Translations under genes and position numbers: made by a program | DNA from: Kordia periserrulae | GTDB lineage: Bacteria; Bacteroidota; Bacteroidia; Flavobacteriales; Flavobacteriaceae | DNA length: 64,000 bases | NCBI RefSeq assembly: GCF_003054265.1 | Contig: NZ_QBKT01000002.1 | Coordinates: forward strand, 434,001-498,000 | Direction of reading: 5' to 3' | Part shown: one piece after another, positions 2,149-42,472 of the stretch | How the letters are laid out: every line of letters starts with the position of its first letter | Numbering within the stretch: the stretch's first letter is position 1 | Notes under the pieces: model-generated | What the model saw: the letters and a program-made list of their open reading frames with translations, nothing else | Database searches by the model: none | What the model was told of the DNA's origin: nothing

Positions 2149-2379
2149 ATGAAAAAAAAGAGCCTAAAAAGTTTAAAGTTGACGAAAAACACAATTAGTA
2201 ATTTTAAGCGCAGCGTTACAGGTGGACTTCAAGAAGCACAATCAGAAATTTTATCATGTTTGCCACCGCCGCCACCGCCAGTTACACAACCATACACAGG
2301 TTGTCAAGACACAGTAAACAACTGGTGTGATTCTAGATTTGGAGGCTGCCCAACCTATTACTGTCCAACTGACCAATAA
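2149..2379 (+). CDS. GG-leader Cys-rich peptide precursor 1 (Pro6 core)
   Basis: A 76-residue peptide. Its Lys-rich leader KSLKSLKLTKNTISNF has the K-x-L-x-L-x-K-x-x-I pattern of Bacteroidetes natural-product/lanthipeptide-type precursors and ends in VTGG (about 23-26). The tail holds six consecutive prolines and five cysteines (SC, GC, WC, GC, YC) with several Thr/Ser, and ends PTDQ. The ATG at 2149 is chosen because the leader begins exactly there. A longer in-frame reading upstream overlaps the LysE gene and has no matching family pattern. A strong terminator follows. No modification enzyme or protease is adjacent. Family membership is inferred from the leader, and the product is unknown. 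Confidence 0.8.
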   Translation: MKKKSLKSLKLTKNTISNFKRSVTGGLQEAQSEILSCLPPPPPPVTQPYTGCQDTVNNWCDSRFGGCPTYYCPTDQ

Positions 2380-2406
2380 GATATCACAGTACACGTGAAA
2401 AATTTG

Positions 2407-2441
2407 AAAACAGCTTATTATTTATTAATAAGCTGTTTTTT
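2407..2441 (+). terminator. Intrinsic terminator after peptide gene 1
   Basis: A 10-bp perfect stem (CAGCTTATTA / TAATAAGCTG) with a 5-nt loop, extended by A/T pairs and followed by a T-run. It begins about 30 nt after the peptide stop. Confidence 0.85.
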
Positions 2442-2498
2442 ATGTGTAAAAATGATTGAATCTCTTAAAAAAACATTCGCTAAAACGTTTTCGTTGAT

Positions 2499-2506
2499 TA
2501 TCTTTG
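2499..2506 (+). promoter_or_regulatory. -7 promoter box of the HMG-CoA lyase-like gene
   Basis: TATCTTTG matches TAnnTTTG. It ends only 7 nt before the ATG at 2514, so the transcript would be nearly leaderless. Confidence 0.6.
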
Positions 2507-2513
2507 ACACTCT

Positions 2514-3377
2514 ATGGAAAACATTAAAATAATAGAATGTCCACGTGATGCCATGCAAGGCATTAAGATGTTTATTCCTACAGAAAAAAAGGTGCAATAC
2601 ATTCAATCCTTACTGCGTGTAGGCTTTGATACGATTGATTTTGGAAGTTTTGTGTCGCCAAAAGCCATTCCGCAAATGGTAGATACTGCCGAAGTATTGT
2701 CGCAATTAGACTTGTCTACGACAGAAAGTAAATTATTGGCAATTGTGGCGAATGTTCGTGGTGCAAATGACGCAAGTGCGCATCCAGAAATTCAGTATTT
2801 AGGCTATCCGTTTTCAATTTCGGAAAACTTCCAGATGCGAAATACGCATAAAACCATAGCGCAGTCCATAGAAACTTTACAAGAAATTTTAAACATAGCG
2901 ACTAAAACTAATAAAGAAGTGGTAGCATATCTCTCTATGGGATTTGGAAACCCGTACGGCGATCCTTGGAATGTAGAAATCGTGGGACAATGGACGGAAA
3001 AACTCTCCAACATGGGCGTTAAAATTTTATCGCTTTCGGATACCATTGGCTCTTCCACACCAGATGTGATAGCATATTTGTATTCCAATCTCATTCCAGC
3101 ATATCCAGACATTGAATTTGGCGCGCATTTACACACCACACCAAGTTCATGGCACGAAAAAGTAGATGCCGCATACAAAGCTGGCTGTAGACGTTTTGAT
3201 GGCGCTATTCAAGGATTTGGCGGTTGCCCAATGGCAAAAGATGAACTTACAGGAAACATGCCTACCGAGAAAATGGTTTCGTATTTTACAGCAGCAAAAG
3301 CAAACAGTAATATTCAAGCCATGAGTTTTGAATCTGCCTACAACGAAGCTTCTAAAATTTTTAATTATTATCATTAG
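2514..3377 (+). CDS. Hydroxymethylglutaryl-CoA lyase-like TIM-barrel protein
   Basis: A 287-residue HMGL-like (DRE-TIM) protein. HMG-CoA lyase cleaves HMG-CoA to acetyl-CoA and acetoacetate in leucine and ketone metabolism. The opening IIECPRDAMQG carries the Arg-Asp pair of the family, GAHLHT gives the metal-binding histidines, and GFGGCPMA holds the catalytic-loop cysteine. The glycine-rich loop differs somewhat from classical lyases (KDELTGN after GCPMA), so a related aldol-lyase cannot be excluded. The near-leaderless start places ATG 2514 just after its promoter box. It stands alone between a peptide gene and guaB. Confidence 0.85.
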   Translation: MENIKIIECPRDAMQGIKMFIPTEKKVQYIQSLLRVGFDTIDFGSFVSPKAIPQMVDTAEVLSQLDLSTTESKLLAIVANVRGANDASAHPEIQYLGYPFSISENFQMRNTHKTIAQSIETLQEILNIATKTNKEVVAYLSMGFGNPYGDPWNVEIVGQWTEKLSNMGVKILSLSDTIGSSTPDVIAYLYSNLIPAYPDIEFGAHLHTTPSSWHEKVDAAYKAGCRRFDGAIQGFGGCPMAKDELTGNMPTEKMVSYFTAAKANSNIQAMSFESAYNEASKIFNYYH

Positions 3378-3503
3378 TAGTTGAGAAGTTTAGTGGTTGA
3401 AAAGTTTATTAGTTTAAGTTTCAAACAAAAAGACAAATCAACAAAGAGACAAGCCATCAAAAAGACAAAAAAGGAAAACCTCTTAACTACCAAAAAAAAG
3501 TAG

Positions 3504-3511
3504 TATATTTG
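3504..3511 (+). promoter_or_regulatory. -7 promoter box of guaB
   Basis: TATATTTG is a perfect TAnnTTTG box 26 nt before the guaB ATG. The leader is too short to hold a purine riboswitch. Confidence 0.7.
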
Positions 3512-3536
3512 CACGCAATTATATTTTAATTGCACA

Positions 3537-5018
3537 ATGACAGCACACAACAACAAAATTCTGGGCGAAGGGTTAACTTACGATGATGTCTTACTCGTAC
3601 CTGCGTTTTCAGAAGTTCTTCCAAGAGAAGTCAACATCCAAACAAAATTTACAAGAAACATTACGATTAATGTACCTATCATTTCGGCAGCGATGGATAC
3701 GGTAACAGAATCGTCAATGGCAATTGCAATGGCGCGTGAAGGCGGTATTGGTGTCTTACACAAAAACATGACGATTGAGCGACAAGCCCAAAAAGTACGC
3801 AGAGTAAAACGTGCTGAAAGTGGTATGATTCTCGATCCTGTAACGTTGCCACTTACGGCAACCGTTGCAGATGCCAATGCAAGCATGAAAGAAAACAGTA
3901 TTGGCGGAATTCCAATTGTAGATCATGAAGGAAAACTGAAAGGAATTGTAACCAATAGAGATTTACGTTTTGAGCACAATAGCAAGCGCCCAATTGTTGA
4001 AGTCATGACAAGCGAAAAAGACGGATTAGTAACGTCTTCGGAAGGAACTTCGTTAAAAGATGCTGAAGCAATTTTACAAAAACATAAAATCGAAAAACTG
4101 TTAATCGTAGACGATTCATATAAACTAAAAGGATTGATTACGTTTAGAGACATTACCAAAGTCACCCAAAAACCAATTGCGAACAAAGACTCATACGGAC
4201 GTTTGCGCGTAGCAGCCGCATTAGGCGTTACCGCAGATGCGGTTGATAGAGCAGAAGCCTTAGTAAAAGCGGGCGTGGATGCAGTGGTAATTGATACCGC
4301 GCACGGACATACCAAAGGTGTAGTTACTGTGTTAAAAGACGTAAAAGCAAAATTCCCAAATTTGGAAGTCATTGTTGGAAACATTGCTACAGGTGCAGCA
4401 GCAAAATATTTGGTAGAAGCTGGTGCAGATGCTGTCAAAGTAGGAATTGGTCCAGGTTCTATCTGTACGACGCGTGTGGTGGCTGGTGTTGGTTTTCCAC
4501 AATTTTCAGCGGTATTGGAAGTGGCTGCAGCGATAAAAGGCAGTGGAGTTCCTGTGATTGCTGATGGTGGAATTCGATACACAGGTGATATTCCAAAAGC
4601 AATTGCTGCCGGAGCCGATTCTGTAATGTTAGGCTCGTTATTAGCTGGAACGAAAGAATCACCAGGAGAAACCATCATTTACGAAGGAAGAAAATTCAAA
4701 TCGTATCGTGGAATGGGTTCTGTAGAAGCGATGAAACAAGGTTCTAAAGACCGATATTTCCAAGATGTAGAAGCAGATATTAAAAAATTAGTGCCAGAAG
4801 GAATTGTTGGTCGTGTGCCATATAAAGGAAATTTAGACGAAAGCATTCATCAATTTATTGGCGGATTGCGTGCAGGAATGGGCTATTGCGGAGCAAAAGA
4901 CATTGCTACACTCAAAGAAAACGGACAATTTGTGCGTATTACAGCAAGTGGAATCAACGAAAGTCACCCACATGATGTTGCTATTACCAAAGAAGCGCCA
5001 AACTATTCAAGAAGGTAA
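3537..5018 (+). CDS. guaB: IMP dehydrogenase
   Basis: GuaB oxidises IMP to XMP with NAD+, the committed step to GMP. The 493 residues are full length. The barrel starts with [15 protein letters not shown], and two CBS domains (about 95-215) interrupt it. The active-site loop [15 protein letters not shown] contains catalytic Cys ~310, [12 protein letters not shown] binds phosphate, and the flap has [10 protein letters not shown] and [10 protein letters not shown] with the catalytic Arg/Tyr region. It has its own promoter and ends at a hairpin shared with the convergent peptide gene. purC, another purine gene, is about 31 kb away. Confidence 0.98.
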
Positions 5019-5040
5019 AATCATTTTAATACAACATAAA

Positions 5041-5076
5041 AAAGGCTGTCATTTTCTTTCGAGAATGACAGCCTTT
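5041..5076. terminator. Bidirectional terminator between guaB and peptide gene 2
   Basis: A long hairpin (AAAGGCTGTCATT / AATGACAGCCTTT) with T/A-rich ends lies between the convergent guaB and the minus-strand peptide gene, so it can serve both. Confidence 0.8.
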
Positions 5077-5095
5077 ATCGTTATACTAAGTCATC

Positions 5096-5287
5096 TTATG
5101 GTTCAGTTGGTGCACATTGAATAGCACAAACTCCTCCAAAGCTTGTTTGTACTCCATAACATAAATCTACAAAGCGACTTGTGTAAATGTCAGAAGTTCC
5201 TGTTCCTCCTTTTACTGCTTTTTCAGAAAGTGACGAAATGGTTCTTTTTTGTAAAGTCAAACCATTTTTCAAATTTCTTTTTTTCAT
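5096..5287 (-). CDS. GG-leader Cys-containing peptide precursor 2
   Basis: A 63-residue peptide. The leader KRNLKNGLTLQKRTISSL matches the K-L-x-L-x-K-x-x-I-S pattern shared by the other precursors here and ends VKGG (about 25-28). The tail has three cysteines (LCYG, VCAI, QCAP), is rich in Thr/Ser/Gly, and ends PTEP. The ATG at 5287 begins the leader. It is transcribed toward guaB and ends at their shared hairpin, so it is probably monocistronic. No processing gene is adjacent. The natural-product precursor label is inferred from the leader only. Confidence 0.75.
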   Translation of the reverse strand: MKKRNLKNGLTLQKRTISSLSEKAVKGGTGTSDIYTSRFVDLCYGVQTSFGGVCAIQCAPTEP

Positions 5288-5426
5288 AATCTTAAAAATT
5301 TAATAGTTAATTAATTTGGACATTTCTTTAAAGATATCAAATGATTGTCGCTAATGAAAAAAATATACGTTGAGAAACGCCAAGGACTTGCTCAAATTCA
5401 TGAATTTGACCTCTATATATTCCATA

Positions 5427-5466
5427 AAAAAAGCCTTGCATATATTGAAAATGCAAGGCTTTTATA
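5427..5466 (-). terminator. Terminator downstream of the OmpH-like gene
   Basis: A 13-bp perfect stem (AAAAGCCTTGCAT / ATGCAAGGCTTTT) with a 9-nt loop and A/T-rich flanks, about 16 nt beyond the OmpH-like stop codon. Confidence 0.85.
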
Positions 5467-5481
5467 AAGATATATAATTCC

Positions 5482-6003
5482 TTATTTCTCTTCGTCTAAT
5501 TTGAGTCCTAGTTTGGCTGCAGTTTTTAACGTAATGTCATATTGTGGGTCTATGTATGCCAATTCGTTTCCGTCAAGTGTAAAAACTTGTGTATATTTTT
5601 CTTCTTTCGAAACGGCAGCTACAGCGTCACCTACTTTTTTATACAACGGTCGCATCAACTCGTCTTGTTTTAATTGTACCAATTGCACTGCATTTTGACG
5701 AAACTTTTGAATATCGTTTTCTAAATCGAAAATTTCCTTCTGTTTCTTCTTTTTATCTTCGTCTGTCATGTCTTTAAAAGCAGCATTCGCAGCTTCTACT
5801 TCTTTTCCGTACGCGTCTAATTTTGCTTTTAAATCGGCTTGTAACTCTTTTTCGTAGGCTTCCATACCTTTTTGAACTTCTGCAATTTCAGGTAATTTAG
5901 AAACTAGAATATTGATATTCACAGTACCAACTTTTGTTTGAGCTGACACTGTATAGGAACAAAATACAATAGCGAATGTGTAGAGTAAATGTTTAATTTT
6001 CAT
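5482..6003 (-). CDS. OmpH/Skp family periplasmic chaperone
   Basis: A 173-residue periplasmic protein of the Skp/OmpH family, which holds unfolded outer-membrane proteins for the BAM machinery. The signal peptide MKIKHLLYTFAIVFCSYTVSAQ is followed by KVGTVNINILVSKLPE, matching the family opening. A long charged coiled-coil (about 45-115) contains the tentacle helices. The ATG at 6003 is preferred because the signal peptide starts there; an upstream TTG would only add Lys/Asn residues. It is monocistronic, with its own terminator. Confidence 0.88.
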   Translation of the reverse strand: MKIKHLLYTFAIVFCSYTVSAQTKVGTVNINILVSKLPEIAEVQKGMEAYEKELQADLKAKLDAYGKEVEAANAAFKDMTDEDKKKKQKEIFDLENDIQKFRQNAVQLVQLKQDELMRPLYKKVGDAVAAVSKEEKYTQVFTLDGNELAYIDPQYDITLKTAAKLGLKLDEEK

Positions 6004-6164
6004 TAGATTAAATTTTTTATTTTTCAAAGTTGGCTAAAGTAATGAAAACATCATACCAAAAAAACAAACTTGCAGAAAATTAACGTTTTTAAAGTGATTT
6101 TTTTACGAATTGAAACAGATGTCAAGTGCTGAAACCACTTGAAACTATTAGTAATTAACAAAAA

Positions 6165-6398
6165 TTACTCTACACGTTGTCCGCGATGTGGTTTTAACTT
6201 TTCTCGCATCACCGTAACATCTTCTTCTTTAATAATCATCGTTGCTGCAGCGTGCATTTCGGAAAATTCTACTACTTTAATAGCTTCTCCATGCAGTTTT
6301 TCCATTTTGATAAAATCGTGTAAATGCACACAATGATGTTCAGCAGTCCGTTTTCCGTTTGGGCCTCTAAAATCCCAAATAAGTTTTACTTTTCCCAT
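6165..6398 (-). CDS. Small conserved protein of unknown function
   Basis: A 77-residue soluble protein from MGKVKLIWDFRGPNG. It is rich in His (HHCVHLHDF, about 20-28) and ends in a basic tail. The ATG at 6398 is preferred over an upstream reading that would add a Lys-rich extension without conserved character. There is no signal peptide or membrane segment. The clustered His/Cys could bind metal, but this is only suggested by composition. It lies between OmpH and the minus-strand peptide genes, with a terminator in between. I do not recognise the family. Confidence 0.65.
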   Translation of the reverse strand: MGKVKLIWDFRGPNGKRTAEHHCVHLHDFIKMEKLHGEAIKVVEFSEMHAAATMIIKEEDVTVMREKLKPHRGQRVE

Positions 6399-6453
6399 GT
6401 TTCTTTTTTTTTTACAAAAATACGCATCTCGAGTCAAAGATGATGAAAAAAAG

Positions 6454-6483
6454 AAAAGCTTCCAGTTTCCTGAAAGCTTTTCA
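6454..6483 (-). terminator. Terminator after peptide gene 3
   Basis: Hairpin AAAAGCTTCCAG / CTGAAAGCTTTT with a 4-nt loop. On the minus strand it is followed by a T-rich run, just past the peptide 3 stop. Confidence 0.8.
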
Positions 6484-6500
6484 ACATAAACGATGTATGA

Positions 6501-6659
6501 TTATCTATCCTCATTTTTTGTCGGACAATCTTCCGTTTCACACATAGGACAAACCGTGTTAAATTCAGATTCGCCTCTTGGTGCTAATCCACCTTGAATT
6601 TCAAATTTTGAAATAGAAATTTTGTTTAATCGTAAACTTTGTAAATGTTGTTTTTTCAT
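6501..6659 (-). CDS. GG-leader Cys-containing peptide precursor 3
   Basis: A 52-residue peptide. The leader MKKQHLQSLRLNKISISKF follows the K-x-L-x-L-x-K-x-x-I-S pattern and ends IQGG at about 21-24. The short core begins LAPRGESEF and holds three cysteines in VCPMC and DCP, with acidic residues, ending KNEDR. The CPMC pair resembles a zinc or disulfide CxxC, but in this context a modified or oxidised core is equally possible. A terminator follows directly. Peptide gene 4 lies upstream on the same strand with about 105 nt between them, so the two may be co-transcribed. Confidence 0.75.
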   Translation of the reverse strand: MKKQHLQSLRLNKISISKFEIQGGLAPRGESEFNTVCPMCETEDCPTKNEDR

Positions 6660-6712
6660 AATGATACTTTTAAGTTAATACCTAAAAATATGCAAGCTTA
6701 TGATTTTTTAGG

Positions 6713-6727
6713 TACGGTATTACCGTA
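6713..6727. promoter_or_regulatory. Perfect 7-bp inverted repeat between peptide genes 3 and 4
   Basis: TACGGTA-T-TACCGTA is a perfect palindrome with a 1-nt centre in the short gap between two same-strand peptide genes, 54 nt before the peptide 3 start. It could be an operator or part of a weak terminator; sequence alone does not decide. Confidence 0.35.
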
Positions 6728-6764
6728 TTTTTGATGTTTACAACATTTTATGACGTTAAAAAAT

Positions 6765-6932
6765 CTAATAACAATAATTTATCGGCAAATACAGCGAAAG
6801 TTGTTGACATGCTTTTATGTTTATACAATTTGTAGCCAAGCTCTGTTTCGCTCCTCCATTTATTTTATTAGTACTTAATCCAGCTATTTTTTCACTGTTA
6901 AATTTTAGTGATTTTAATTTCTTTTTTTTCAT
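6765..6932 (-). CDS. GG-leader Cys-containing peptide precursor 4
   Basis: A 55-residue peptide. The leader MKKKKLKSLKFNSEKIAGLS fits the shared pattern (L-K-S-L-K-F-x-x-x-K-I-A) and ends INGG at about 25-28. The tail AKQSLATNC onward has three cysteines (NC, AC, YC) and is more hydrophobic than the other cores, ending INYCY. It is read from the ATG at 6932 to a TAG at 6765. It is the first of two tandem minus-strand peptide genes and sits upstream of peptide 3. No modification gene is adjacent. Confidence 0.7.
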   Translation of the reverse strand: MKKKKLKSLKFNSEKIAGLSTNKINGGAKQSLATNCINIKACQQLSLYLPINYCY

Positions 6933-7002
6933 GATATCTAAATTTAAGACCTCATAAATTTATAAAATAAAGATGCTATTTAAGTAATGTAAAAACTTAC
7001 AA

Positions 7003-8253
7003 TTAATACGTTTTCCGTACAGGTTCAGGAAACAAAGCTTCAAACGTATTCAACACTTCATACGCGTTTTCGCAAATTCCCTGTGTTGGATGATGGTTGG
7101 AAGTATGATTCCAGCGTAATGCAATAATACTTTTATATACATCCACAAACGGAATGTCTGTATTCACATAATATTTATAATACAAGTACAACGCGGTAAC
7201 TGTTACGGAGCGACTTCCACCGTCATGACAATGAATGACTAAATTTCCTTGTGCGTAAAAATTGACCAATCCATCCGCTTTTTGTTGTGTTGGCGACGGA
7301 AAGTTGAGTAATTGTTCTGCTTCTTGTACAGCCGCCACTAAGGTCATGATATCATTATCGCTGCCGTCAATCAAACCAACTTTACTAAGTTGATTCAAAT
7401 AATAATTTTCATTGGCAGCTTTTTCAAAAGGCAGCGCAGAGCGTTTGTCTATTTGCGGGTCAGAAAATGGAATTTGTAAATCTTCTTTATCATTTACATC
7501 ATACGCTACATTTAAAACTGCCGCAATTTGGTTGTCGATAATCGCTTGTTCTGTCAATAAAAAACTTGCACCTACAAAAATATATTGCTCTGTCAATCCT
7601 TCTGGAACATTGGCTTTTGGAACTTGAAAAATACAGGTCATTGCCTGATTTGGAAAGTTTCCTGCGGGAATCGGTGCTTGATTTCCAAACAATTCGCGCG
7701 GATCAATCGTTTGCAATTCTTCACAAAATGTTTTTTCAATAGGGTCAACAATAGTTTGGTCGGTATCGCCATACATCAATAATTGTGGAATTTGTGTTAG
7801 CGTATAAGTTGTATCTCCATTATACGTAAGTTTCCAAACCAAATCAAAACAGCTCTCTGGCCAAAGACTTGAAGGGACTTCTTTTGCGCCAAATGCAGTT
7901 GCAATAGCTTCAATATTTGTGTGTTGCCAAGCAATCGCAATGACGGAATCATTATACGAATCATCATTCAAAATATGTGTCACCATATCTTGATACTGAT
8001 ATTTTAAAAAGGAATCGTGAATTTTCTTGTTCAATCGTGCAGCCAACGGTGTAACGGTTTCTACAGGACGTTTACTTGGACTTTTCAATCCGACACCAGC
8101 CGCAAAAATATGATCTATGGTGTTAAAATTCGCTGGTACATAATAGGCGAGTGCGGCGGCTCTTTCGTAACCTTTGGTTGCTAAGTTTTCATTAGAAGGA
8201 TCTGCAGGTTTTTCTGCATGACGTATAATTAGAATTTCTTTAGGATATCCCAT
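7003..8253 (-). CDS. Histidine-phosphatase / dual-specificity-phosphatase fusion
   Basis: A 416-residue cytosolic protein with two phosphatase-like halves. Residues 1-~150 look like the histidine phosphatase (phosphoglycerate mutase) superfamily: RHAEKP at 11-16 supplies the phospho-accepting His12, RPVETVTPLAARL supplies the second Arg region, and WQHTNIEAI supplies the later catalytic His. The C-terminal half (about 215-400) looks like a dual-specificity protein phosphatase: AVLNVAYDV, a possible general acid in IPFSDPQID, and the signature VIHCHDGGSRS with nucleophile Cys342 and Arg348 (HCxxGxxR). Both active sites look complete. The two families are unrelated in fold and mechanism, so the fusion is unusual. 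No signal peptide. The substrate is unknown. It is transcribed away from the OMPLA-like gene. Confidence 0.8.
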   Translation of the reverse strand: MGYPKEILIIRHAEKPADPSNENLATKGYERAAALAYYVPANFNTIDHIFAAGVGLKSPSKRPVETVTPLAARLNKKIHDSFLKYQYQDMVTHILNDDSYNDSVIAIAWQHTNIEAIATAFGAKEVPSSLWPESCFDLVWKLTYNGDTTYTLTQIPQLLMYGDTDQTIVDPIEKTFCEELQTIDPRELFGNQAPIPAGNFPNQAMTCIFQVPKANVPEGLTEQYIFVGASFLLTEQAIIDNQIAAVLNVAYDVNDKEDLQIPFSDPQIDKRSALPFEKAANENYYLNQLSKVGLIDGSDNDIMTLVAAVQEAEQLLNFPSPTQQKADGLVNFYAQGNLVIHCHDGGSRSVTVTALYLYYKYYVNTDIPFVDVYKSIIALRWNHTSNHHPTQGICENAYEVLNTFEALFPEPVRKTY

Positions 8254-8432
8254 TGGAATTATTTTTTCCCTAAAAGTAGCAAAATATCTGAAAGTGATGT
8301 AGGCGTAGTTTCACGTAATTTTTTATCTAGTCACAAAAACAATTCAACAAATCAAACTAACAATTCTTACAATTACGATTAAAAAGCGATATACTTTTTT
8401 TCTACATTTACCAATAAATTAAACAACGATTC

Positions 8433-9446
8433 ATGAAAAAGCGGCATTTCTTCTTACTTTTTATACTTGTTCAATGGAGTTTTGGACAAACTTCCAATGC
8501 AAATACCAACGACAACAATGCATTCAATGATTTTTATCCCATCGCTGTAAAACCCTCACTTGGCTATTTATCAAACATGAACGCACATGAAGATATCTTA
8601 TTTGATGCAAAACCGACAGTATATTACAGCATTATCAACAATATTATTGAGAATATGCAATCGGAAGAAAACAAAGCAGGAAACGCCTTTTACATGAGCT
8701 TCCAACCACATATTCGGATGTATGCAGAAAACTCAAAACCTGTAAAAACGCCTTCATATCGTGTGTTATTTGGTTGGCAACACATGATTAAAACAAAAAG
8801 TAACAACTTTTTTACATGGGCAATTGAAAGTGGTCATTATTCTAACGGACAATCGGGTTGTGCGTTCCTTTCGGGAGAAGACGACGAATCGATGGCATGT
8901 ATGGATTTTCACACTACTATTACGGACGAAAGCAATCTTTCCCAATTATTGAACAGAGCTAACGGAAATTTTTCCACCAATACCACAAAACTCTCTCTAA
9001 ACTTTCGCTTCAACGAATTGAACAATGCTGATGAACCCTATAAAATTCATTCGTTTACAACTTCGTATGAACTCTATCACAATCGTTTTTTCGGGTTGTT
9101 CAATGTGGGAGGTTATACCGATTTTGACATCCGCATTTACGGTAGACATCGTTTTGGATTGGGATATGAATATGTGCATCAATGGAAGCCGAAAATACGC
9201 TATTCCTTAGAGCAAAAAATAGAACTCATACAAGGTGCGCATTCTTTTGTAGAACCGTTACGGAGTGAAACAACCTTTACTATTTACCCATTCAATCGCA
9301 ACATCGGATTCTTTGGAACGTACGTGTACGGACACGACAATTACAATCTCCGTTTTGTAGATTCAGGGCATCAAATCGGATTCGGCGTCAGCTGGGATTT
9401 ATTTCAACCATTTCAAATCACGCGTGCTAAAACCACAGATTTGTGA
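8433..9446 (+). CDS. Outer-membrane phospholipase A-like protein
   Basis: A 337-residue secreted beta-barrel-type protein with a signal peptide (about 1-19, ending WSFGQ). The segment ESGHYSNGQSG matches the OMPLA (PldA, PF02253) active-site motif HxSNGxS, giving the catalytic His and Ser. The C-terminal strand region GHDNYNLRFVDSGHQIGFGVSW resembles the end of the OMPLA barrel. OMPLA hydrolyses phospholipids in the outer leaflet when membrane asymmetry is lost. An insertion with several acidic residues follows the His/Ser motif, so the catalytic Asn position is uncertain; NRANGN is a candidate. Another outer-membrane enzyme is possible. Confidence 0.7.
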   Translation: MKKRHFFLLFILVQWSFGQTSNANTNDNNAFNDFYPIAVKPSLGYLSNMNAHEDILFDAKPTVYYSIINNIIENMQSEENKAGNAFYMSFQPHIRMYAENSKPVKTPSYRVLFGWQHMIKTKSNNFFTWAIESGHYSNGQSGCAFLSGEDDESMACMDFHTTITDESNLSQLLNRANGNFSTNTTKLSLNFRFNELNNADEPYKIHSFTTSYELYHNRFFGLFNVGGYTDFDIRIYGRHRFGLGYEYVHQWKPKIRYSLEQKIELIQGAHSFVEPLRSETTFTIYPFNRNIGFFGTYVYGHDNYNLRFVDSGHQIGFGVSWDLFQPFQITRAKTTDL

Positions 9447-9454
9447 TTTTTCTT

Positions 9455-9635
9455 TTTAGATGAGGTGTTTGGTTTTGGGTGTTAGGTGTTAGATTCATGT
9501 TTTTTTGTTTTCTATTGTTTGTTATTCGTCGAAAATAATCAGAAGACAAGAAGACAAAACAACAAACAACAAACAACAAAGAACAAATCACCCAAAACCT
9601 AACACCCAAAACCTAACACCCAAAACCCAATAAAA
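9455..9635. repeat. Inverted low-complexity repeats between OMPLA-like gene and helicase
   Basis: The left part reads GGTGTTTGGTTTTGGGTGTT and the right part reads AACACCCAAAACCTAACACC several times, giving an inverted pair. Between them lie G-poor AACAAACAACAAAGAACAAA units. The C-rich strand points outward to the neighbouring gene at each end. Confidence 0.7.
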
Positions 9636-9638
9636 AAG

Positions 9639-9669
9639 TTGTATTAGCGCTGCGAGAGTATTATTTTTG
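9639..9669 (+). promoter_or_regulatory. Promoter of the UvrD-family helicase gene
   Basis: TTG (9639-9641) and TATTTTTG (9662-9669) are separated by 20 nt, matching the Bacteroidetes -33/-7 arrangement. The box ends 9 nt before ATG 9679 and contains the alternative TTG at 9667, which therefore is unlikely to be the start. Confidence 0.7.
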
Positions 9670-9678
9670 AAGTTACTT

Positions 9679-12253: not shown

Positions 12254-12260
12254 AAAAAAA

Positions 12261-31572: not shown

Positions 31573-31574
31573 GC

Positions 31575-33478: not shown

Positions 33479-33479
33479 A

Positions 33480-35375: not shown

Positions 35376-35799
35376 GAAATTATAAATGTCGAATGTTAAA
35401 TTTTAAATGTAAAAGTGTTTTTTTGATGTTCAACTTTGAATTGAAAAAGACTAAAACGTCACTTCGAGTAAAATTCTGAAAGAGTTTAGTATCGAGAAGT
35501 ACTTTGAATCGTAATTTTAGTACCAAAGCACTTCTCGATACAATTTTCTATCTATCTCAACTGCGCTCGATATGACAGAAAATCACTTGAAATGACGGCA
35601 GTTTTCAATCAAAACAACAAATAACAAAAAGAAACAAGAGTCAGTATTTAAGAGTAAAGACAAATAGACGAATCGACAAAAAACGAATAACGAACAACGA
35701 ACAACGAACAACAAAACACCTAACACCTAACACCTAACACCCAAAACCTAACACCCAAAACCTAATACCCAACACCAAAAACCCAACACCCAAAAAAAA
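35376..35799. repeat. Gene-free gap with a palindromic element and low-complexity repeats
   Basis: A palindromic element at 35457-35597 is bounded by CGTCACTTCGAGT and ACTTGAAATGACG, with inner ATCGAGAAGTAC and GCACTTCTCGAT arms. From about 35675 to the purC ATG run G-poor units: ACGAATAACGAACAACGAAC, then CACCTAACACCTAACACC repeated about ten times. No promoter box or gene is obvious. Confidence 0.75.
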
Positions 35800-36753
35800 A
35801 TGAACACCATAACAGCAACAAATTTCAACTTTCCGAATCAAACTGCGAAATACACAGGAAAAGTACGCGAAGTGTACACGATTAACGAGGATGTGTTAGT
35901 CATGATTGCTACCGATCGTTTGTCAGCGTTTGATGTGGTGATGCCGAAAGGAATTCCGTTTAAAGGACAAATTCTGAATCAAATTGCGACGAAAATGATG
36001 AAAGCTACGGAACATTTGGTGCCAAATTGGTTGCTAGCGACACCAGATCCAAATGTTGCGATTGGTCACAATTGTGAGCCTTTTAAAGTGGAAATGGTGA
36101 TTCGTGGGTATTTGTCGGGACATGCAGCACGTGAGTACAAAGCTGGAAAACGTACCTTGTGTGGTGTAGCAATGCCTGACGGTATGATTGAAAATGATAA
36201 ATTTCCATCACCAATCATCACACCGGCAACAAAGGCGGAAATGGGAGCACACGATGAAGATATTTCTCGCGAAGATATTTTAGCACGCGGAATCGTTTCG
36301 GAAGAAGATTATGTGCAGTTGGAAAACTATACACGATTACTTTTTGAAGAAGGCACAAAAATTGCCAAAGAACGCGGTTTGATTTTGGTAGATACCAAAT
36401 ACGAATTCGGGAAAACAAAAGAGGGTAAAATCGTGTTGATTGATGAAATTCACACACCAGACTCTTCTCGTTATTTTTATGCGGATACCTACGAGGAATT
36501 GCAAGCCAAACAACAGCCACAAAAACAATTATCGAAAGAATTCGTACGCCAATGGTTGATTAGCAACGGATTTCAAGGCAAAGAAGGTCAAGAAGTGCCT
36601 TTTATGAGCGATGACTATATCAATTCCGTTTCTGACCGTTATATTGAACTTTACGAAAACATTACTGGCGATACTTTTGAAAAGGCAGATGTTTCCAATA
36701 TTCAGCATAGAATAGAGCAAAATGTCGTTAGTTTTTTAGAAAGTCATTTTTAA
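35800..36753 (+). CDS. purC: SAICAR synthetase (purine synthesis)
   Basis: PurC joins CAIR and aspartate with ATP to give SAICAR in purine synthesis. The 317 residues match the longer PurC form common in Bacteroidetes. Motifs: GKVREVYTI near the N-terminus, [47 protein letters not shown] and [11 protein letters not shown]. The ATG follows a block of AACACC-type repeats, and no clear promoter box is visible nearby. Confidence 0.97.
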
Positions 36754-37016
36754 TTGTACCGATTTTAGTCTAAATTGTATTACAAATAACACAGAAGCGA
36801 TTTTTAATCAGAAAAGTCTGTATTTCCCTATCATTTCTTAACCTATTGTAGTGCGTTGAGCATCAGTTTTTTTAGCGATATTTAAAAAAAAGACGCTAAA
36901 AAAGCTTCGTTATATTTATAAAAAAGTATATTCTTATATGATTTTAATTCTAAGATGCCACTTCACCTATAAAGTTGTAGCTTAGAGCTAAATTCGTATT
37001 ATAGCCTATTTACCAG

Positions 37017-38708
37017 ATGATGAATCGCTTTTTTCTATACTATCTTTTATTTTTTCTAGTGATTGCTTGTGCAGATACGTCTTCTCAGCAAAGCGCGAAT
37101 AGTACAAAACAATTATTGGAAGAAGCAGAAGAAGCGGTGTTGAATTATCAAGGAATTGAAACCGATTCCATCATGCAACTTCGGATGGAATATTACCACA
37201 AAGCTTCTACGTTTAACGATTCTGTTCATACCTATCGTGCGCATTTTTATTTAGGCGAATTTTACCAAAGTAGAGGCATTTACAAAGATGCGATGTCCGA
37301 ATATGAAAAAGCATTGCGACATATTTCCGACGACGCCGACAGCGCGCGCTATGTGCAAACTAAGATTGCCATTGCTACCACTGAGATTGAACTAGGAAAC
37401 AAATACAAAGCAGGCGAAATTTTGTTGGATGCGTATGAAGTCGCGCAACGTAATAAACGCACCATGCAGCTCATCAACGTGAATGGAAACATGGGGATTT
37501 TGAGTTTGGATTTAAAGAATTTTCAAGAAGCTAAAAAGAGTTTCAAAGAAGCCATCCAAACGATAGAAGAGAAGCAACTCATTGAAAAAGATTCTATCAA
37601 TTATGTGGAAGATTATATTAATTATCACATGTTTTTGGCTAAAGCGTATCAAGCTGAAATATTGTTGGATTCTGCCATGTCTTATATTGATAAAGGCATC
37701 ATCATTGCCGATTATTATCAAGATATTGAAGGAAAGGCCTATTTGTACGAACTAAAAGGGAAAACACATACTGCACAAGGAAAATATGCGGAAGCACATG
37801 AAAATTTAACCGCTTCCAAAGAAATTTTCACCGATTTACAGAATGAAAAGCAAATTTCTAAAATTATGTATTTGCTAGCCGACAATCATTTTCAAAGAGG
37901 AGAAACTTCCAAAGCATTGGCATTGCTTGACGAGTTGGAAGCACGTTACCAGCAAAAATTTCTCTTAGAAACCGATTATTATGACGCTTTAGTGTTGAAA
38001 GCTGATGTGTATAAAAGTAGTAAGCAATTTGAAAACGAATCTGTCTATCGTCAAAAATCAGCAGATATTCAGAAGGAAATTGCGGAGCGACAAGATAAAA
38101 CGGCGTTTTTTCAAACGGCAACGCAATACGAAATTGAAAAACTTAAAAATAAATTTGAAGCGCAACATCAAAAAGATAAAAAGCGTTTTTACAGTTTTTT
38201 AGCAATCGCTATCATTGTGATTGCAGTTTTTAGCTTCTTACTCTACAAACAAATTTCTAAGAAAAAAGCAGCAGTAGTTTCTGTAACAGAAAACGAACTA
38301 GAAAAAACAGTTTCAATCGCTAAAAAAGAAAAATCGACCACACAAACCAGCATTAAAAGCGATAAAACTGTTGATGAGATACTTCAAAAGTTGAAAAATT
38401 TGGAAGCACAGGAATTTTACCTAAATCCTAAATACAATTTGTATGCAACGGCGAAAAAGATTGATACCAATACGACGTATTTATCTACCATTTTGAATGT
38501 GCATAAAAAGATGACCTTTACCGAATACTTAAACAATCTTCGCATTCAATATACACTCAATCGATTGGAGAACGATAAGAAATTTAGGATGTACACTATT
38601 AAGGCAATTGCCAAAGAAGTTGGTTATAAAAGTCATGGTTCGTTCTCGCGTGCTTTTAAAGCTAAAACAGGCGAAAACCCATCTACATATCTCAAAAAAA
38701 TACGTTAA
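37017..38708 (+). CDS. Membrane TPR-AraC hybrid regulator
   Basis: A 563-residue protein with an N-terminal lipobox-like signal (FLVIACADTSSQQ, about 12-24), a series of tetratricopeptide helices (~40-375), one transmembrane helix (~391-410, FLAIAIIVIAVFSFLLY) and a C-terminal AraC-type DNA-binding domain (~460-563) with TVKAIAKEVGY-type and FSRAFKAKTGENPSTYLKK segments. The sensor would face the periplasm and the HTH the cytosol. If the Cys is really lipidated the topology needs checking. The start is one of two adjacent ATGs. It lies next to a peptide gene (38803). Confidence 0.85.
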   Translation: MMNRFFLYYLLFFLVIACADTSSQQSANSTKQLLEEAEEAVLNYQGIETDSIMQLRMEYYHKASTFNDSVHTYRAHFYLGEFYQSRGIYKDAMSEYEKALRHISDDADSARYVQTKIAIATTEIELGNKYKAGEILLDAYEVAQRNKRTMQLINVNGNMGILSLDLKNFQEAKKSFKEAIQTIEEKQLIEKDSINYVEDYINYHMFLAKAYQAEILLDSAMSYIDKGIIIADYYQDIEGKAYLYELKGKTHTAQGKYAEAHENLTASKEIFTDLQNEKQISKIMYLLADNHFQRGETSKALALLDELEARYQQKFLLETDYYDALVLKADVYKSSKQFENESVYRQKSADIQKEIAERQDKTAFFQTATQYEIEKLKNKFEAQHQKDKKRFYSFLAIAIIVIAVFSFLLYKQISKKKAAVVSVTENELEKTVSIAKKEKSTTQTSIKSDKTVDEILQKLKNLEAQEFYLNPKYNLYATAKKIDTNTTYLSTILNVHKKMTFTEYLNNLRIQYTLNRLENDKKFRMYTIKAIAKEVGYKSHGSFSRAFKAKTGENPSTYLKKIR

Positions 38709-38802
38709 AAAAGACTGTTCAATTTATAAATTAGCAAGACTTTTTTTGATGTATAAAGCAAGTTGTTATGTATCTTGAATAAAACTAATAAATATACCCA
38801 TC

Positions 38803-38988
38803 ATGAAAACAAATCGAAAACCATTAGCCTTTAACAAAATAAAAATCGCAAGAGTCAATTCTTATGCTATCATTGGAAGAGGAACTACCGTCCCAAATAC
38901 GGTATTTCCAGAATGCGCGCCAGAAGAATCAAGAACTCCAAAAGGCGGAAGAACACAATCTACAGAAGACACGAATGATTGTGCCTAA
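38803..38988 (+). CDS. Leader-type peptide precursor 5 (no GG)
   Basis: A 61-residue peptide. The N-terminus MKTNRKPLAFNKIKIARVN fits the L-x-F-N-K-x-x-I-A leader pattern, but the usual double glycine is replaced by AIIGRG. The tail is rich in Thr, Glu, Arg and Pro (PEESRTPKGGRTQSTED) with only two cysteines (PEC and DC near the end). It is followed by a strong terminator shared with the convergent peptide 6. Family membership is weaker than for the others. It lies 94 nt after the TPR-AraC regulator. Confidence 0.55.
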   Translation: MKTNRKPLAFNKIKIARVNSYAIIGRGTTVPNTVFPECAPEESRTPKGGRTQSTEDTNDCA

Positions 38989-39010
38989 GATTATTTATTA
39001 AAAAGATTTG

Positions 39011-39046
39011 AAAGGCTTCTTGCAATCACTCAAGAAGCCTTTTTTT
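39011..39046. terminator. Terminator between convergent peptide genes 5 and 6
   Basis: Perfect stem AAAGGCTTCTTG / CAAGAAGCCTTT with a 7-8-nt loop and a T-run; A-rich on the other side. It can serve both convergent genes. Confidence 0.85.
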
Positions 39047-39074
39047 GTAAATTAATCTTAATTAACCTCTAAAA

Positions 39075-39272
39075 TTAAAATGTAGCATCGTCACAAGTAT
39101 ACACTTGCGGACACGCTATATACCAATTGCAATAAAATGGTCCTGTAACGCGTCCTGCGCAGTCACATCCACATTTTGATAAATCTGGATTACTCCCAAT
39201 TCCACCATTGATTTTACTCTGAGCTGCTTTTGAAATCTCAGTAGCTCCTTTAATGTTTAAAATTTTACTCAT
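39075..39272 (-). CDS. GG-leader Cys6 peptide precursor 6
   Basis: A 65-residue peptide. The leader MSKILNIKGATEISKAAQSKINGG is of a different subtype from peptides 1-4 (N-I-K-G-x-x-x-I-S-K then Q-x-x-INGG). The core has six cysteines: CGCDC, YC, AC and TC, in the order KCGCDCAGRVTGPFYCNWYI then ACPQVYTCDD. Peptide 7, 476 nt away, is its close paralogue, with the same cysteines and leader. The six cysteines and the CGCDC motif suggest disulfide, metal or thioether chemistry; none is proven. Confidence 0.8.
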   Translation of the reverse strand: MSKILNIKGATEISKAAQSKINGGIGSNPDLSKCGCDCAGRVTGPFYCNWYIACPQVYTCDDATF

Positions 39273-39454
39273 TATTACGAATGTTATAGTTAATATTTGT
39301 TTTTTTAAATGTGTAAAGTCAACGCTTCTACTATTAAAATTACATACAGTTTTATAAGAATAAAAGAGGAATCGTTTTCGTTTTAAAAATTGTAGTTGTT
39401 TGTTTTATAAAGTGAATACACTAAAAACGCGCTGAAAAACGGAGTAGATAATCG

Positions 39455-39490
39455 AAAAGGCTTCAATGTTGTAACATGAAGCCTTTCTTT
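39455..39490 (-). terminator. Terminator after peptide gene 7
   Basis: Hairpin AAAGGCTTC / GAAGCCTTT with inner ATGTT/AACAT pairs. The minus-strand T-run is weak. It separates the two paralogous peptide transcripts. Confidence 0.65.
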
Positions 39491-39555
39491 CCCCTAAATA
39501 TAGTTGTGCTTATGAATAACTATATGATGATTTGATTTTATGTTTTGGTGTCGAC

Positions 39556-39747
39556 TTAAATAGTGTCACCGCAAGTATATACTTGTGGACAAGCAATAAA
39601 CCAGCTGCAATATTTTGGTCCTGTAACGCGTCCTGCGCAATCGCATCCGCATTTTGATAGGTCGTATCCTGCTCCACCATTAATTTGGCTTTGTTGCTCC
39701 TTAGAGATCGCAGAAACACCTTTGATGTTTAAAATGTTTTTTTTCAT
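39556..39747 (-). CDS. GG-leader Cys6 peptide precursor 7
   Basis: A 63-residue close paralogue of peptide 6: leader MKKNILNIKGVSAISKEQQ, INGG at about 22-25, and a core with the same six cysteines (KCGCDCAGRVTGPKYCSWFI, ACPQVYTCGD). The upstream DNA of the two genes is also related: a GAATAAAAGA...GTTTTAAAAAT...TTTTATAAA segment lies about 100 nt before each start, showing that a unit with its promoter region was duplicated. The divergent neighbour is a MATE pump. Confidence 0.8.
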   Translation of the reverse strand: MKKNILNIKGVSAISKEQQSQINGGAGYDLSKCGCDCAGRVTGPKYCSWFIACPQVYTCGDTI

Positions 39748-39954
39748 TGTTTTTAGTTTTAAGTTAATAATCTGAAATCATAAATCACAATTGTTTTAAG
39801 CCACTCATGCATAATTTATGACATTCCAAATGTAATAGGAGATTTTTTCGAATAAAAGAACTCTTATGTCTGTTTTAAAAATCAAGCTGTTTATTTTATA
39901 AAATAGAAAGGGTAAATTCACTTCAAAGTATGCGTCTTTACAAGAAAAGAAGGC

Positions 39955-39962
39955 TATATTTG
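39955..39962 (+). promoter_or_regulatory. -7 promoter box of the MATE gene
   Basis: TATATTTG, a perfect TAnnTTTG box 19 nt upstream of the GTG start at 39982. Confidence 0.7.
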
Positions 39963-39981
39963 CCACGTCAAAAACAAACCT

Positions 39982-41373
39982 GTGATTTTACAAAACTACA
40001 CGAAAGAATTTAGGTATAATCTTAAATTGGCGTCTCCAATTATCCTAGGAATGTTGGGGCATACCTTTGTAAGTTTTGTAGATAATGCAATGGTGGGACA
40101 ATTGGGAACGGCGGAACTCGCCGCAGTGTCTTTAGGGAATAGTTTTCTCTTCATTGCGATGTCACTCGGTATCGGATTTTCCACAGCAATCACCACTTTA
40201 GTCGCTGAAGCAGATGCAGCAGGAAACAAGCAAAAGGTAAAAAGTGCCTTAAAACACGGTTTGATTCTTTGCACCATCATCGGAATTGTTGTATTTGTCG
40301 GTGTTTTGCTAGCCAAACCGTTAATGTACGAAATGAAGCAGCCTGAAGAAGTCGTTGTTCTTGCGATGCCTTATTTAAATTTGGTTGCCGCTTCGTTGAT
40401 TCCGTTAATCATGTTTCAAGCGTTTAAGCAATTTGCAGACGGATTGTCACAAACCAAATACGCCATGTGGGCAACTTTACTAGCAAATGTGGTAAATGTC
40501 ATTATCAATTACTTCTTAATTTTCGGAATCTGGATTTTTCCAAAATGGGGAATCATTGGTGCTGCAATTGGTACGCTAGCATCGCGAATTATCATGTTGC
40601 TCTTTATTTGGTTATTGCTGCGCTACAAACAAAAATTCAGAGCGTATGTTACAAATTTTGACTTTAAAAGCATCCAAAAATCTGTCTTAAAAAAAATCAT
40701 TGCCTTAGGTTTTCCGTCGTCGTTACAAATGTTGTTTGAAGTAGCGATATTTACGGCTGCTATTTGGTTGTCAGGGATTTTAGGTAAAAATGCGCAAGCG
40801 GCAAATCAAATTGCACTAAACTTATCTGCCATGACCTTTATGGTTGCCATGGGACTCAGTGTTGCGGCAACGATTAGAGTAGGAAACCAAAAAGGATTAC
40901 AGCAATTTTCAGAATTGCGACGCATCGCATTATCACTGTTGTTTTTGGTATTGATTATTGATGTTTTCTTCGCAGGAATGTTTATGTTATTCAACGATTG
41001 GTTTCCAACCTTATACGTCAACGAGCACAATATCATCAATATGGTGGATAATGAAGAAGTAATCATTACGGCAGCAAAACTCTTACTTGTTGCGGCGTTT
41101 TTTCAAATTTCGGATGGAATACAAGTTGTCGGACTGGGGATTTTACGCGGTTTGCAAGACGTGAAAATTCCAACACTTATTACCTTTATTGCGTATTGGA
41201 TTGTTGGTTTTCCAACCTCGTATTATCTCGGATTGCACACCGAATATAAAAGTACTGGAATTTGGATTGGTTTATTGGCAGGATTGACAACTTCAGCAAT
41301 ATTATTGTATATTAGATTTAATTATTTATCCAAAAAACTTATAAATAAGCAACTGACGCATGGAGCTTCCTAA
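39982..41373 (+). CDS. MATE-family efflux transporter
   Basis: A 463-residue inner-membrane protein with about twelve transmembrane segments in two pseudo-symmetric halves, the MATE fold for Na+ or H+-coupled drug/metabolite export. The opening KLASPIILGMLGHTFVSFVDNAMVGQLG is typical of family starts, and ALNLSAMTFMVAMGLSVAATIRVGN is the second-half counterpart. The start is GTG, placed by the promoter box just upstream. The substrate is not predictable. It overlaps the next small gene by 14 nt. Confidence 0.93.
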   Translation: MILQNYTKEFRYNLKLASPIILGMLGHTFVSFVDNAMVGQLGTAELAAVSLGNSFLFIAMSLGIGFSTAITTLVAEADAAGNKQKVKSALKHGLILCTIIGIVVFVGVLLAKPLMYEMKQPEEVVVLAMPYLNLVAASLIPLIMFQAFKQFADGLSQTKYAMWATLLANVVNVIINYFLIFGIWIFPKWGIIGAAIGTLASRIIMLLFIWLLLRYKQKFRAYVTNFDFKSIQKSVLKKIIALGFPSSLQMLFEVAIFTAAIWLSGILGKNAQAANQIALNLSAMTFMVAMGLSVAATIRVGNQKGLQQFSELRRIALSLLFLVLIIDVFFAGMFMLFNDWFPTLYVNEHNIINMVDNEEVIITAAKLLLVAAFFQISDGIQVVGLGILRGLQDVKIPTLITFIAYWIVGFPTSYYLGLHTEYKSTGIWIGLLAGLTTSAILLYIRFNYLSKKLINKQLTHGAS

Positions 41374-41587
41374 ATTTTTATTGGGCGATAACACCGATTA
41401 TCCCAACGCAATTTTTATTGTACACACTGAGTTTCCACGATTTATCATCAATCTAGAAAATGATGAGGTAGAGTGGATGGAAGAATTTGACAAGGAAGAT
41501 GAAAAAGAATTGGCTTCTGAAGCAGAAAATTTATTTCAAGCTGCCAACGATTTCTACGATCGTGAATTGGAGCGTTACGACGAATAG
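41360..41587 (+). CDS. Small acidic conserved protein
   Basis: A 75-residue highly acidic protein (about one third Asp/Glu) beginning MELPKFLLGDNTDYPNAIF. No signal peptide, membrane segment or known domain. The N-terminal half is a short beta-rich region (IVHTEFPRFIINLENDEVEW), the C-terminal half an acidic helix. It overlaps the MATE gene by 14 nt and is followed 14 nt later by the PAP2 gene, so the three probably form an operon. I do not recognise a function. Confidence 0.75.
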   Translation: MELPKFLLGDNTDYPNAIFIVHTEFPRFIINLENDEVEWMEEFDKEDEKELASEAENLFQAANDFYDRELERYDE

Positions 41588-41601
41588 CATAATTTAGCTA
41601 C

Positions 41602-42171
41602 ATGATTGATCAACTGATACAATTTGACAAAGAAGTTTTTCTATTTCTCAACGGACTCGGAACGCCCACTTGGGATGGTTTTTGGATGTTCATCACCAAT
41701 AAATATTACGCCATTCCGTTGTATGCTTTTTTGTTGTTTCTCATCATCAAAACACACAAAAAAAAGGAAATCTTTTTTACTTTGGTATTGGTTGCGTTGC
41801 TCATTACAATTACTGACCAAACGGCAAATTTGTTTAAAAAAACACTTTTTCTACGTCCGCGACCTTGCTACACCGAAGACTTAATGGAGCATCTGCGTTT
41901 GGTCAAAGATTCTTGTGGCGGCGCGTATGGCTATTTCTCAGGACATGCGTCTAATGCGATGGCGTTAGCTGTATTTATTGGGCTGGTCTTAAAAAAACAT
42001 TTTAACTATATCTTTCCTTTCCTATTAATTTGGGCAGCATTTGTTGGCTACAGCCGAATTTATATTGGTGTCCATTTTCCTGGCGATGTGCTTACGGGAG
42101 CCATTGTTGGCGCGATTTACGGAACACTTTTGTACAAATTCCGCCAATTTTTGATTCGAAAATATGCTTGA
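41602..42171 (+). CDS. PAP2-family membrane phosphatase
   Basis: A 189-residue membrane protein of the type 2 phosphatidic acid phosphatase family. The three catalytic motifs are present: KKTLFLRPRPC (~74-84), SGHASNAMA (~113-121) and SRIYIGVHFPGD (~149-160). Five or six helices flank them. Candidate substrates are phosphatidic acid or undecaprenyl pyrophosphate, which this family dephosphorylates at the periplasmic face. Last of a three-gene run with the MATE pump. Confidence 0.9.
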   Translation: MIDQLIQFDKEVFLFLNGLGTPTWDGFWMFITNKYYAIPLYAFLLFLIIKTHKKKEIFFTLVLVALLITITDQTANLFKKTLFLRPRPCYTEDLMEHLRLVKDSCGGAYGYFSGHASNAMALAVFIGLVLKKHFNYIFPFLLIWAAFVGYSRIYIGVHFPGDVLTGAIVGAIYGTLLYKFRQFLIRKYA

Positions 42172-42277
42172 TGATTCGAGTAAATTCTTGCAAAATTCTG
42201 TTAAGGTACTCCTAAAATAGAAACGGTTGCGACTACGAATGGTTATCTTTAAGCTTTAATAACTTAAAATTTAAACC

Positions 42278-42472
42278 ATGAAAAAGCAAAAATTACAAAC
42301 CTTACAATTGAACAAAAAATCAATTTCAAGCTTGACGCAAAACCTTTTAAAAGGTGGAGAAGATACTACGTTATACGGCTGTCGTTGGACAGAAAACTCG
42401 TGGTGCGATTGTCCAACCGAAAGAGATTGCACTGACACTGAATGTCACACCGTTTGGGATTGTGAATTGTAA
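42278..42472 (+). CDS. GG-leader Cys6 peptide precursor 8
   Basis: A 64-residue peptide. The leader MKKQKLQTLQLNKKSISSLT fits the K-L-x-L-x-L-x-K-x-x-I-S pattern and ends LLKGG at about 23-27. The core is acidic and has six cysteines alternating with Thr and Asp (YGCRW, SWCDCPTERDC, TECHTVWDCEL). A near-consensus -7 box (TATCTTTA) lies about 27 nt upstream and a UUCG-loop terminator follows, so it is a separate transcript. Again no modification gene is next to it. Confidence 0.8.
   Translation: MKKQKLQTLQLNKKSISSLTQNLLKGGEDTTLYGCRWTENSWCDCPTERDCTDTECHTVWDCEL

Follow-up and report, generated by a model that had tools for sequence, protein, structure and literature searches.

The 64,000-nucleotide (nt) window analysed here (contig NZ_QBKT01000002.1 of assembly GCF_003054265.1, Kordia periserrulae, positions 434,001 to 498,000; the window is this whole stretch, and positions count from its first letter) carries eight small peptide genes, each named below by the first coordinate of its open reading frame (ORF). 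An earlier reading of the sequence alone (the original prediction) had proposed these genes, and all eight ORFs were verified at their coordinates, each with an ATG start. Leader comparison revealed three classes. Class A (2149, 5096, 6501, 6765 and 42278) carries MKKxxLKxLxLNKxxISxL...GG, the leader of Bacteroidetes class I lanthipeptides; class B (38803) is a class A relative with a looser leader and GR at the GG place, lying directly 3' of a TPR-AraC regulator gene; and class C (the pair 39075/39556) has a different GG leader, LNIKG...ISK..QS.INGG. The common leader (LxL/F...K...I-S/A) ascribed to all eight is clear in class A and looser in 38803, and it does not extend to the pair, while a GG end in seven of the eight was confirmed. 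A profile built from 24 regulator-linked leaders, leaving out 38803 and its orthologue, recovered the five class A peptides and 38803 (E 8e-4) from 563 window ORFs, with the next ORF at E 0.065; the pair 39075/39556 was not recovered.

Table 1. Features of the window; promoter 1 denotes the palindromic element TACGG-N5-CCGTA.
Feature	Position	Strand	Basis or remarks
TTYATRAA upstream of 2149, arms weakly matching	2060-2067	upstream of + gene	-89 of 2149
Class A precursor (LxLxK leader, GG)	2149..2379	+	ORF, core Cys, dN/dS
Class A precursor	5096..5287	-	ORF, core Cys, NF038153, dN/dS
Class A precursor with promoter 1	6501..6659	-	ORF, core Cys, promoter score, dN/dS
Promoter 1 palindrome TACGGTAATACCGTA of 6501	6713..6727	-	68 nt from ATG; -7-like word 6684-6690
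Class A precursor	6765..6932	-	ORF, core Cys
Degenerate promoter 1 site of 6765	6985..6999	-	12.5 bits, 67 nt from ATG
TPR-AraC (HTH_18) regulator	37017..38708	+	hydrophobic segments at N-terminus and before DNA-binding domain
TTYATRAA in regulator-38803 gap	38723..38730	+	80 nt from 38803 ATG
Class B precursor-like peptide behind regulator	38803..38988	+	ORF, leader profile, dN/dS
Class C GG-leader peptide	39075..39272	-	ORF, dN/dS
Class C GG-leader peptide, paralogue of 39075	39556..39747	-	ORF, dN/dS
Class A precursor	42278..42472	+	ORF, core Cys, dN/dS

Orthologues in other Kordia were found for seven of the eight genes, and the ratio of nonsynonymous to synonymous substitutions (dN/dS) was 0.04-0.23 in 7/7 pairs (some dS near saturation), which supports, at the level of sequence comparison, coding function and purifying selection for these seven. 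Pooled dN/dS was 0.103/0.623 for leaders and 0.115/0.876 for cores, core constraint equalling leader constraint (again with some dS near saturation); between 42278 and its orthologue in another Kordia genome (G179), 34 of 36 core and 19 of 27 leader residues are identical. No counterpart of 6765 was found on the neighbouring-species contig of Kordia sp. TARA_039_SRF, with an OmpH-like protein 96% identical. Among known families, the NF038153 cut-off (22 bits) was passed by one window peptide, 5096 (22.5 bits), and the TIGR04149 cut-off (25 bits) by none, the one match being 39556 at 14 bits. The suggested kinship with the TIGR04149 group did not stand, and a TIGR04149/radical-SAM identity of the window peptides was rejected on this ground; two other places in the genome pass TIGR04149.

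To place the window genes in the whole genome (4,725,576 bases, 38 contigs, 99.96% complete), we ran leader profiles. NF038153 finds 12 places, and a profile built from 30 leaders of the same genome, whose seeds are recovered by construction, gave at least 148 places at E<=0.1 and at least 139 at E<=0.001, on 14 contigs (150 of 268 candidates scored). The leader set is far larger than the predicted eight, and six of the window genes appear to belong to a genome-wide set of roughly 150 precursors. We read 147 precursors of at least 17 bits in 89 stretches (772,615 bases, selected around matches and enzymes); three of them sit in regulator cassettes and are omitted where dispersed genes are counted. 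GG is present in 139 of the 147, both Cys and Ser/Thr occur in the core of 145, and at least two core Cys are present in 142; overall, Cys makes up 11.8% and Ser+Thr 19.4% of core residues. No leader match of 15 bits or more was found in 400 kb of control DNA from two LanB-less family genomes. G179 gave 16 matches of at least 20 bits in 19 evenly spaced 20-kb stretches (380 kb), which by rough extrapolation corresponds to about 212 genome-wide. Such abundance is not new, because PMC11118758 names Kordia as rich in ribosomally synthesized and post-translationally modified peptides (RiPPs) and already counts as many as 176 precursors for a single Bacteroidota genome (this and the other papers cited are represented here by parts of their text).

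The genome holds a single LanB, split into a glutamylation protein and a separate elimination protein that are encoded adjacently behind LanC. This is the pinensin-type layout, with PF04738, PF14028 and PF05147 on three adjacent genes of contig C7, and about 6 kb beyond follows a gene for a C39-ABC exporter; gene order at the LanB locus is similar in G179 and G077 (ORFs compared by eye). Modification and GG-protease genes, on whose presence in the genome the original prediction hung, do exist (split LanB, LanC and C39). Within the window, profile searches found no LanB, LanC, C39, SPASM or LanB C-terminal family match, and the predicted lack of neighbouring maturation machinery holds for these families; ATP-grasp genes were not searched. 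Across the genome, 1/147 precursors lies within 10 kb of LanB, 3/147 of a LanC-like gene, 2/147 of a C39 match and 4/147 of a SPASM match, whereas for 144/147 every LanB or LanC-like gene found is over 10 kb away. If membership in the class requires a gene cluster shared with LanB and LanC, the set does not qualify: the enzymes are in the genome, with that one precursor within 10 kb. Because the enzymes are not nearby, we term the dispersed genes precursor-like rather than LanB-cluster members. Among 249 family genomes, the NF038153 leader occurs in 9 and LanB in 21; LanB is present in 8/9 leader-holding versus 13/240 leader-less genomes (p 5e-9, uncorrected for relatedness).

Several other gene groups of the same genome stood out. 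Immediately before LanC-LanB lie genes for a protein with sigma-70 region 2 and for a TPR protein (L025:9057-10420; C7, 157-158 kb). A class II LanM (TIGR03897, 774 bits) is present at L030:6985-9858 (C2, 128-131 kb); every class A precursor is more than 10 kb away from it. Two near-identical precursors accompany a lone LanC and a transglutaminase-core gene at L027:8120-10844 (C1, 236-239 kb). Finally, a row of APH-type kinase, HopA1-domain and LanC genes lies beside a 313-aa ORF with Gly/Thr/Cys repeats (L028:8856-13386; C10, 28-33 kb), which resembles a class V lanthipeptide kit.

Upstream comparison of the precursors revealed a first shared element, TACGG-N5-CCGTA-N22-TAnnTTT (promoter 1). 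With at most one mismatch and between -120 and -10, its palindrome precedes 29/147 precursors, 7/309 other genes of the same stretches and 0/216 in LanB-less genomes. The looser form TAHGG-N5-CCDTA (200 nt) precedes 31 precursors versus 10/309 other genes, with TAnnTTT exactly 22 nt beyond in 20 of the 31. A leave-one-out matrix at 8 bits gave 37/147 versus 2/309; both promoter elements described here were discovered and counted in the same gene set, this matrix being the one leave-one-out count. The palindrome centre falls near -42 by -7 numbering, a position at which dimeric activators often bind. The downstream word agrees with the -7 element of the phylum, given as TAnnTTTG in PMC6847099. 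All 17 exact sites in the genome's own DNA, in stretches selected around class A genes, are followed after 65-88 nt by a GG-leader-type peptide ORF, of class A in 13 cases and of the kind MLKNI..LSKxEQ..I.GG in 4, one with GK instead of GG. At 11 bits or more the own sites number 54; small GG-like ORFs follow 41, and the others include sites at two secreted-protein genes and some with no ORF listed; in G179, 5/9 such sites precede GG peptides at 69-73 nt. Within the window, 6501 scores 26.7 bits and 6765 a weak 12.5 bits, and the TARA_039 orthologue of 6501 also has promoter 1 upstream (27.6 bits). Palindromes with spacers of 3, 4, 6 or 7 were rejected, their enrichment not being comparable, and other palindromes in precursors lacking promoter 1 showed a weak excess only (15.5% versus 7.8% for 5-N5-5). 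Other genera yielded two sites of 11-12 bits at their LanB loci (G102, G195), neither preceding an ORF. One promoter-1 class C peptide scores 20.4 bits on NF047798 (leader_Chryseo bacteriocin-like protein; cut-off 23.5), a family to which 39075 and 39556 have no match at E<=1. A class C peptide gene with an exact promoter 1 site adjoins a VKOR plus C39-like gene (L042:373-2290; C13).

A second regularity concerns 38803, which begins 95 nt past the TPR-AraC gene, a link overlooked in the original prediction. The genome encodes 17 full-length relatives of this regulator, itself counted, and a leader-type peptide ORF lies 73-216 nt after 14 of them (exceptions L052, L066 and L068). The same downstream-peptide test was positive for 12/204 genes in G179 (two of them such regulators) and 2/236 in LanB-less genomes; 14/17 versus 10/202 gives p 3e-13, compared across different genomes. 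We also searched 23 of the 249 genomes, hand-picked as 12 LanB-bearing and 11 LanB-less, for regulator matches at E<=1e-15, with a Kordia query that favours its kin. The LanB-bearing genomes gave 17, 1, 15, 6, 7, 9, 4, 1, 1, 7, 1 and 1 matches, and the LanB-less genomes 1, 0, 0, 0, 0, 0, 0, 1, 0, 1 and 1. In 6/13 LanB-bearing genomes compared (our genome, G179, G148, G045, G010 and G177), LanB has such a regulator within about 6 kb. Across 30 regulator loci of other genomes, a leader-type peptide follows within 140 nt in 11, and in 0/4 loci from LanB-less genomes. In all 34 regulators aligned, a hydrophobic segment lies ahead of the DNA-binding domain, and in 22 the N-terminus also passes the same cut-off; this hydropathy fits, without proving, a TPR part that probably lies outside the inner membrane.

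The regulator-peptide gaps contain a second element, TTYATRAA flanked by inverted arms (candidate operator 2), found in 15/25 gaps, taken from our genome and from others (mean of shuffles 1.6, at most 7 in 1000), with 9 of the 15 at -80 to -82. It recurs before dispersed genes: the -90 and -80 bins hold 25 sites among the 147 precursors versus 5 in 309 other genes, and between -98 and -74 the word precedes 28 genes, namely three cassette peptides and 25 dispersed precursors. Cassettes included, 22/28 sites lie at -86 to -79 of the peptide ATG, and a -7-like word follows exactly 39 nt beyond in 10/28. Arm positions 8-11 from the centre pair in 50/100 cases for the 25 dispersed precursors and 34/44 for 11 own cassettes, against a background of about 0.28. 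The arms vary from cassette to cassette. In the best-cassette comparison, 24 dispersed sites (one divergently linked gene removed) matched 5.58 of 8 letters, compared with 3.64 for 316 words from LanB-less genomes and 3.76 for 172 words elsewhere in our genome, which still contain some cassette operators. Column-shuffled arms gave 4.69 (0/2000 reaching 5.58) and 4.88 (1/2000); these shuffles preserve base pairs, not whole arms, and shared promoter ancestry could also give the match. As an example, the precursors at C2:347390 and C11:15395 agree in 8 of 8 arm letters (GTGA/TCAC) with the regulator at C7:163-165 kb, which neighbours LanB. Both promoter types are present before two precursors. 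In the window, a perfect palindrome, TCAAATTCATGAATTTGA, lies upstream of the minus-strand gene 5096, 117 nt before its ATG at about 5390-5410 (inexact coordinates); it resembles the arms of the cassette at C1:643 kb and is farther from the ATG than usual.

Based on these results, we consider it probable that the window contains six members of a class I lanthipeptide-type precursor set about 150 strong, processed in trans through a single LanB under the regulatory scheme outlined below. What was observed directly comprises the leaders and how many there are, cores rich in Cys, one split LanB accompanied by LanC, two kinds of promoter element and the pairing of regulator with peptide genes. Processing in trans of this unusually large set is the best reading, and very likely. 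It is supported because split LanB, LanC and C39 are present in the genome, the set far exceeds eight, and leader and LanB co-occur. The original prediction of a scattered, trans-processed substrate set accordingly carries over to the five class A genes and probably to 38803; it does not carry over to 39075/39556, whose leader is of another GG-peptide type and which are probably not LanB substrates. In the proposed scheme, each leader would dock on the LanB, which would act in trans together with LanC, and the C39 exporter would cleave after GG and secrete the product. One dimeric activator may read TACGG-N5-CCGTA, and the TPR-AraC regulators may recognize the variable arms around TTYATRAA, thereby switching the neighbouring peptide and the matching dispersed precursors. 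A bolder version, in which every regulator detects, outside the inner membrane, the peptide encoded beside it and by way of matching arms switches that peptide and a private precursor subset, forming an addressable peptide regulon with one LanB, is conceivable but doubtful. In Rap-Phr systems of Firmicutes, a TPR regulator is likewise encoded beside a small peptide; the Kordia protein differs in that hydropathy puts its TPR part probably beyond the inner membrane and that this part is joined to an AraC-type domain; peptide binding is only supposed.

Several observations weigh against this picture. Of the LanB-bearing family genomes, 13/21 lack an NF038153 match, and G190 has the match without LanB. 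Alternative enzymes occur in the same genome, namely the LanM, the lone LanC beside two precursors and the kinase/HopA1/LanC set. Promoter 1 stays below 8 bits in 110/147 precursors and is absent from six of the eight window peptides. It was also not found outside genes at the LanB locus at up to one mismatch, and therefore it need not control enzyme and substrates together. No peptide accompanies three of the 17 own regulators, and in G077 and G102, from two other genera, tandem arrays of seven and five TPR-AraC-type genes have no leader peptides between them (L209:2537-14715 and L211:9344-18290). 'One regulator, one peptide' was rejected as a general rule on account of these arrays, the 11/30 foreign loci and the own exceptions.

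Alternative explanations differ in how much of the evidence they accommodate. The dispersed peptides could be unmodified, disulphide-bonded GG bacteriocins or signals exported via C39, with LanB modifying its adjacent precursor only. That a single precursor lies within 10 kb of LanB fits this, as does the occurrence of promoter 1 before class C peptides, whose leader type differs and one of which has the VKOR plus C39-like gene next to it; however, the LxLxKx5L leader is of the class I lanthipeptide type (PMC7268733) and co-occurs with LanB, and the cores contain 19.4% Ser+Thr besides Cys, so we regard this explanation as unlikely. We rate lower still the explanation that separate enzymes, be it LanM, the lone LanC, the kinase/HopA1/LanC set or SPASM proteins, each serve a subset of the precursors: the single leader common to the set and the absence of class A precursors within 10 kb of LanM or the kinase/HopA1/LanC set speak against it, although the genes are present, the lone LanC has two precursors next to it and a SPASM match is found within 10 kb of four.

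Regarding operator 2, the TTYATRAA inverted repeats might, instead of being operators, serve the upstream gene as terminators or mRNA hairpins, since in the cassettes they come after the regulator stop codon and form inverted repeats. Their near-constant distance from the ATG before dispersed precursors (the 22/28 sites given above, cassettes included), their conserved centre and the -7-like word at exactly 39 nt in 10/28 make this improbable, to a degree between the two preceding alternatives. Chance or decaying ORFs, as the short, variable sequences and the missing TARA_039 orthologue of 6765 might suggest, were rejected on the dN/dS of the seven pairs and the absence of leader matches in control DNA, and we give this idea almost no weight.

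The class I reading places the set beside the pinensin group of Bacteroidetes lanthipeptides, with which it shares the leader motif, the GG end, the split LanB with LanC and the C39 exporter at the LanB locus; Walker et al. (PMC7268733) describe LxLxKx5L leaders, GG ends, C39 and split LanB in Bacteroidetes class I clusters. It differs in layout, the pinensin-group precursors being clustered whereas those of Kordia are dispersed. Prochlorosin genes are scattered, and 79 SyncA precursors are reported for SyncM (PMC10783134, PMC12328550). Many genome-scattered precursors per modifying enzyme are thus common to the prochlorosins/synechococsins and Kordia, but the former are cyanobacterial and use a class II LanM, while Kordia combines class I LanB and LanC with more precursors, common promoters and regulator cassettes. 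A prochlorosin system is marked by a LanM enzyme and Nif11-type leaders; the Kordia leaders match the class I profile. Further papers describe gene clusters (PMC10734526, PMC7477175, PMC13101523), and the TrRiPP survey (PMC11118758), which agrees on a RiPP-rich Kordia, contains in the parts consulted no tie of dispersed genes to one LanB, no such promoters and no cassettes. In the open literature (titles, without supplements), nothing was found on the two promoters, the regulator cassettes or a one-LanB dispersed set, nor anything relevant on TPR/AraC with RiPPs or combinatorial LanB; promoter 1 and the TPR-AraC cassettes with operator 2 are apparently unreported. If correct, the class I reading would give the prochlorosin system a natural counterpart among class I lanthipeptide enzymes, in which one enzyme serves more substrates than the 79 of SyncM (PMC10783134), and would bring with it a readable regulatory code in which operator arms predict regulator-precursor pairing, and, through promoter 1, a route to precursors of more than one leader type without knowledge of their enzymes.

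Two minor points concern the window itself. The private terminators ascribed to most of the eight genes were checked over 38600-42800, where a scan gave 6 versus 2.6 in shuffles. On the TARA_039 contig, where 6765 is absent, an extra class A-like precursor near guaB (L049:13618-13827) has no equivalent in the window, and together the two suggest gain or loss at one syntenic place.

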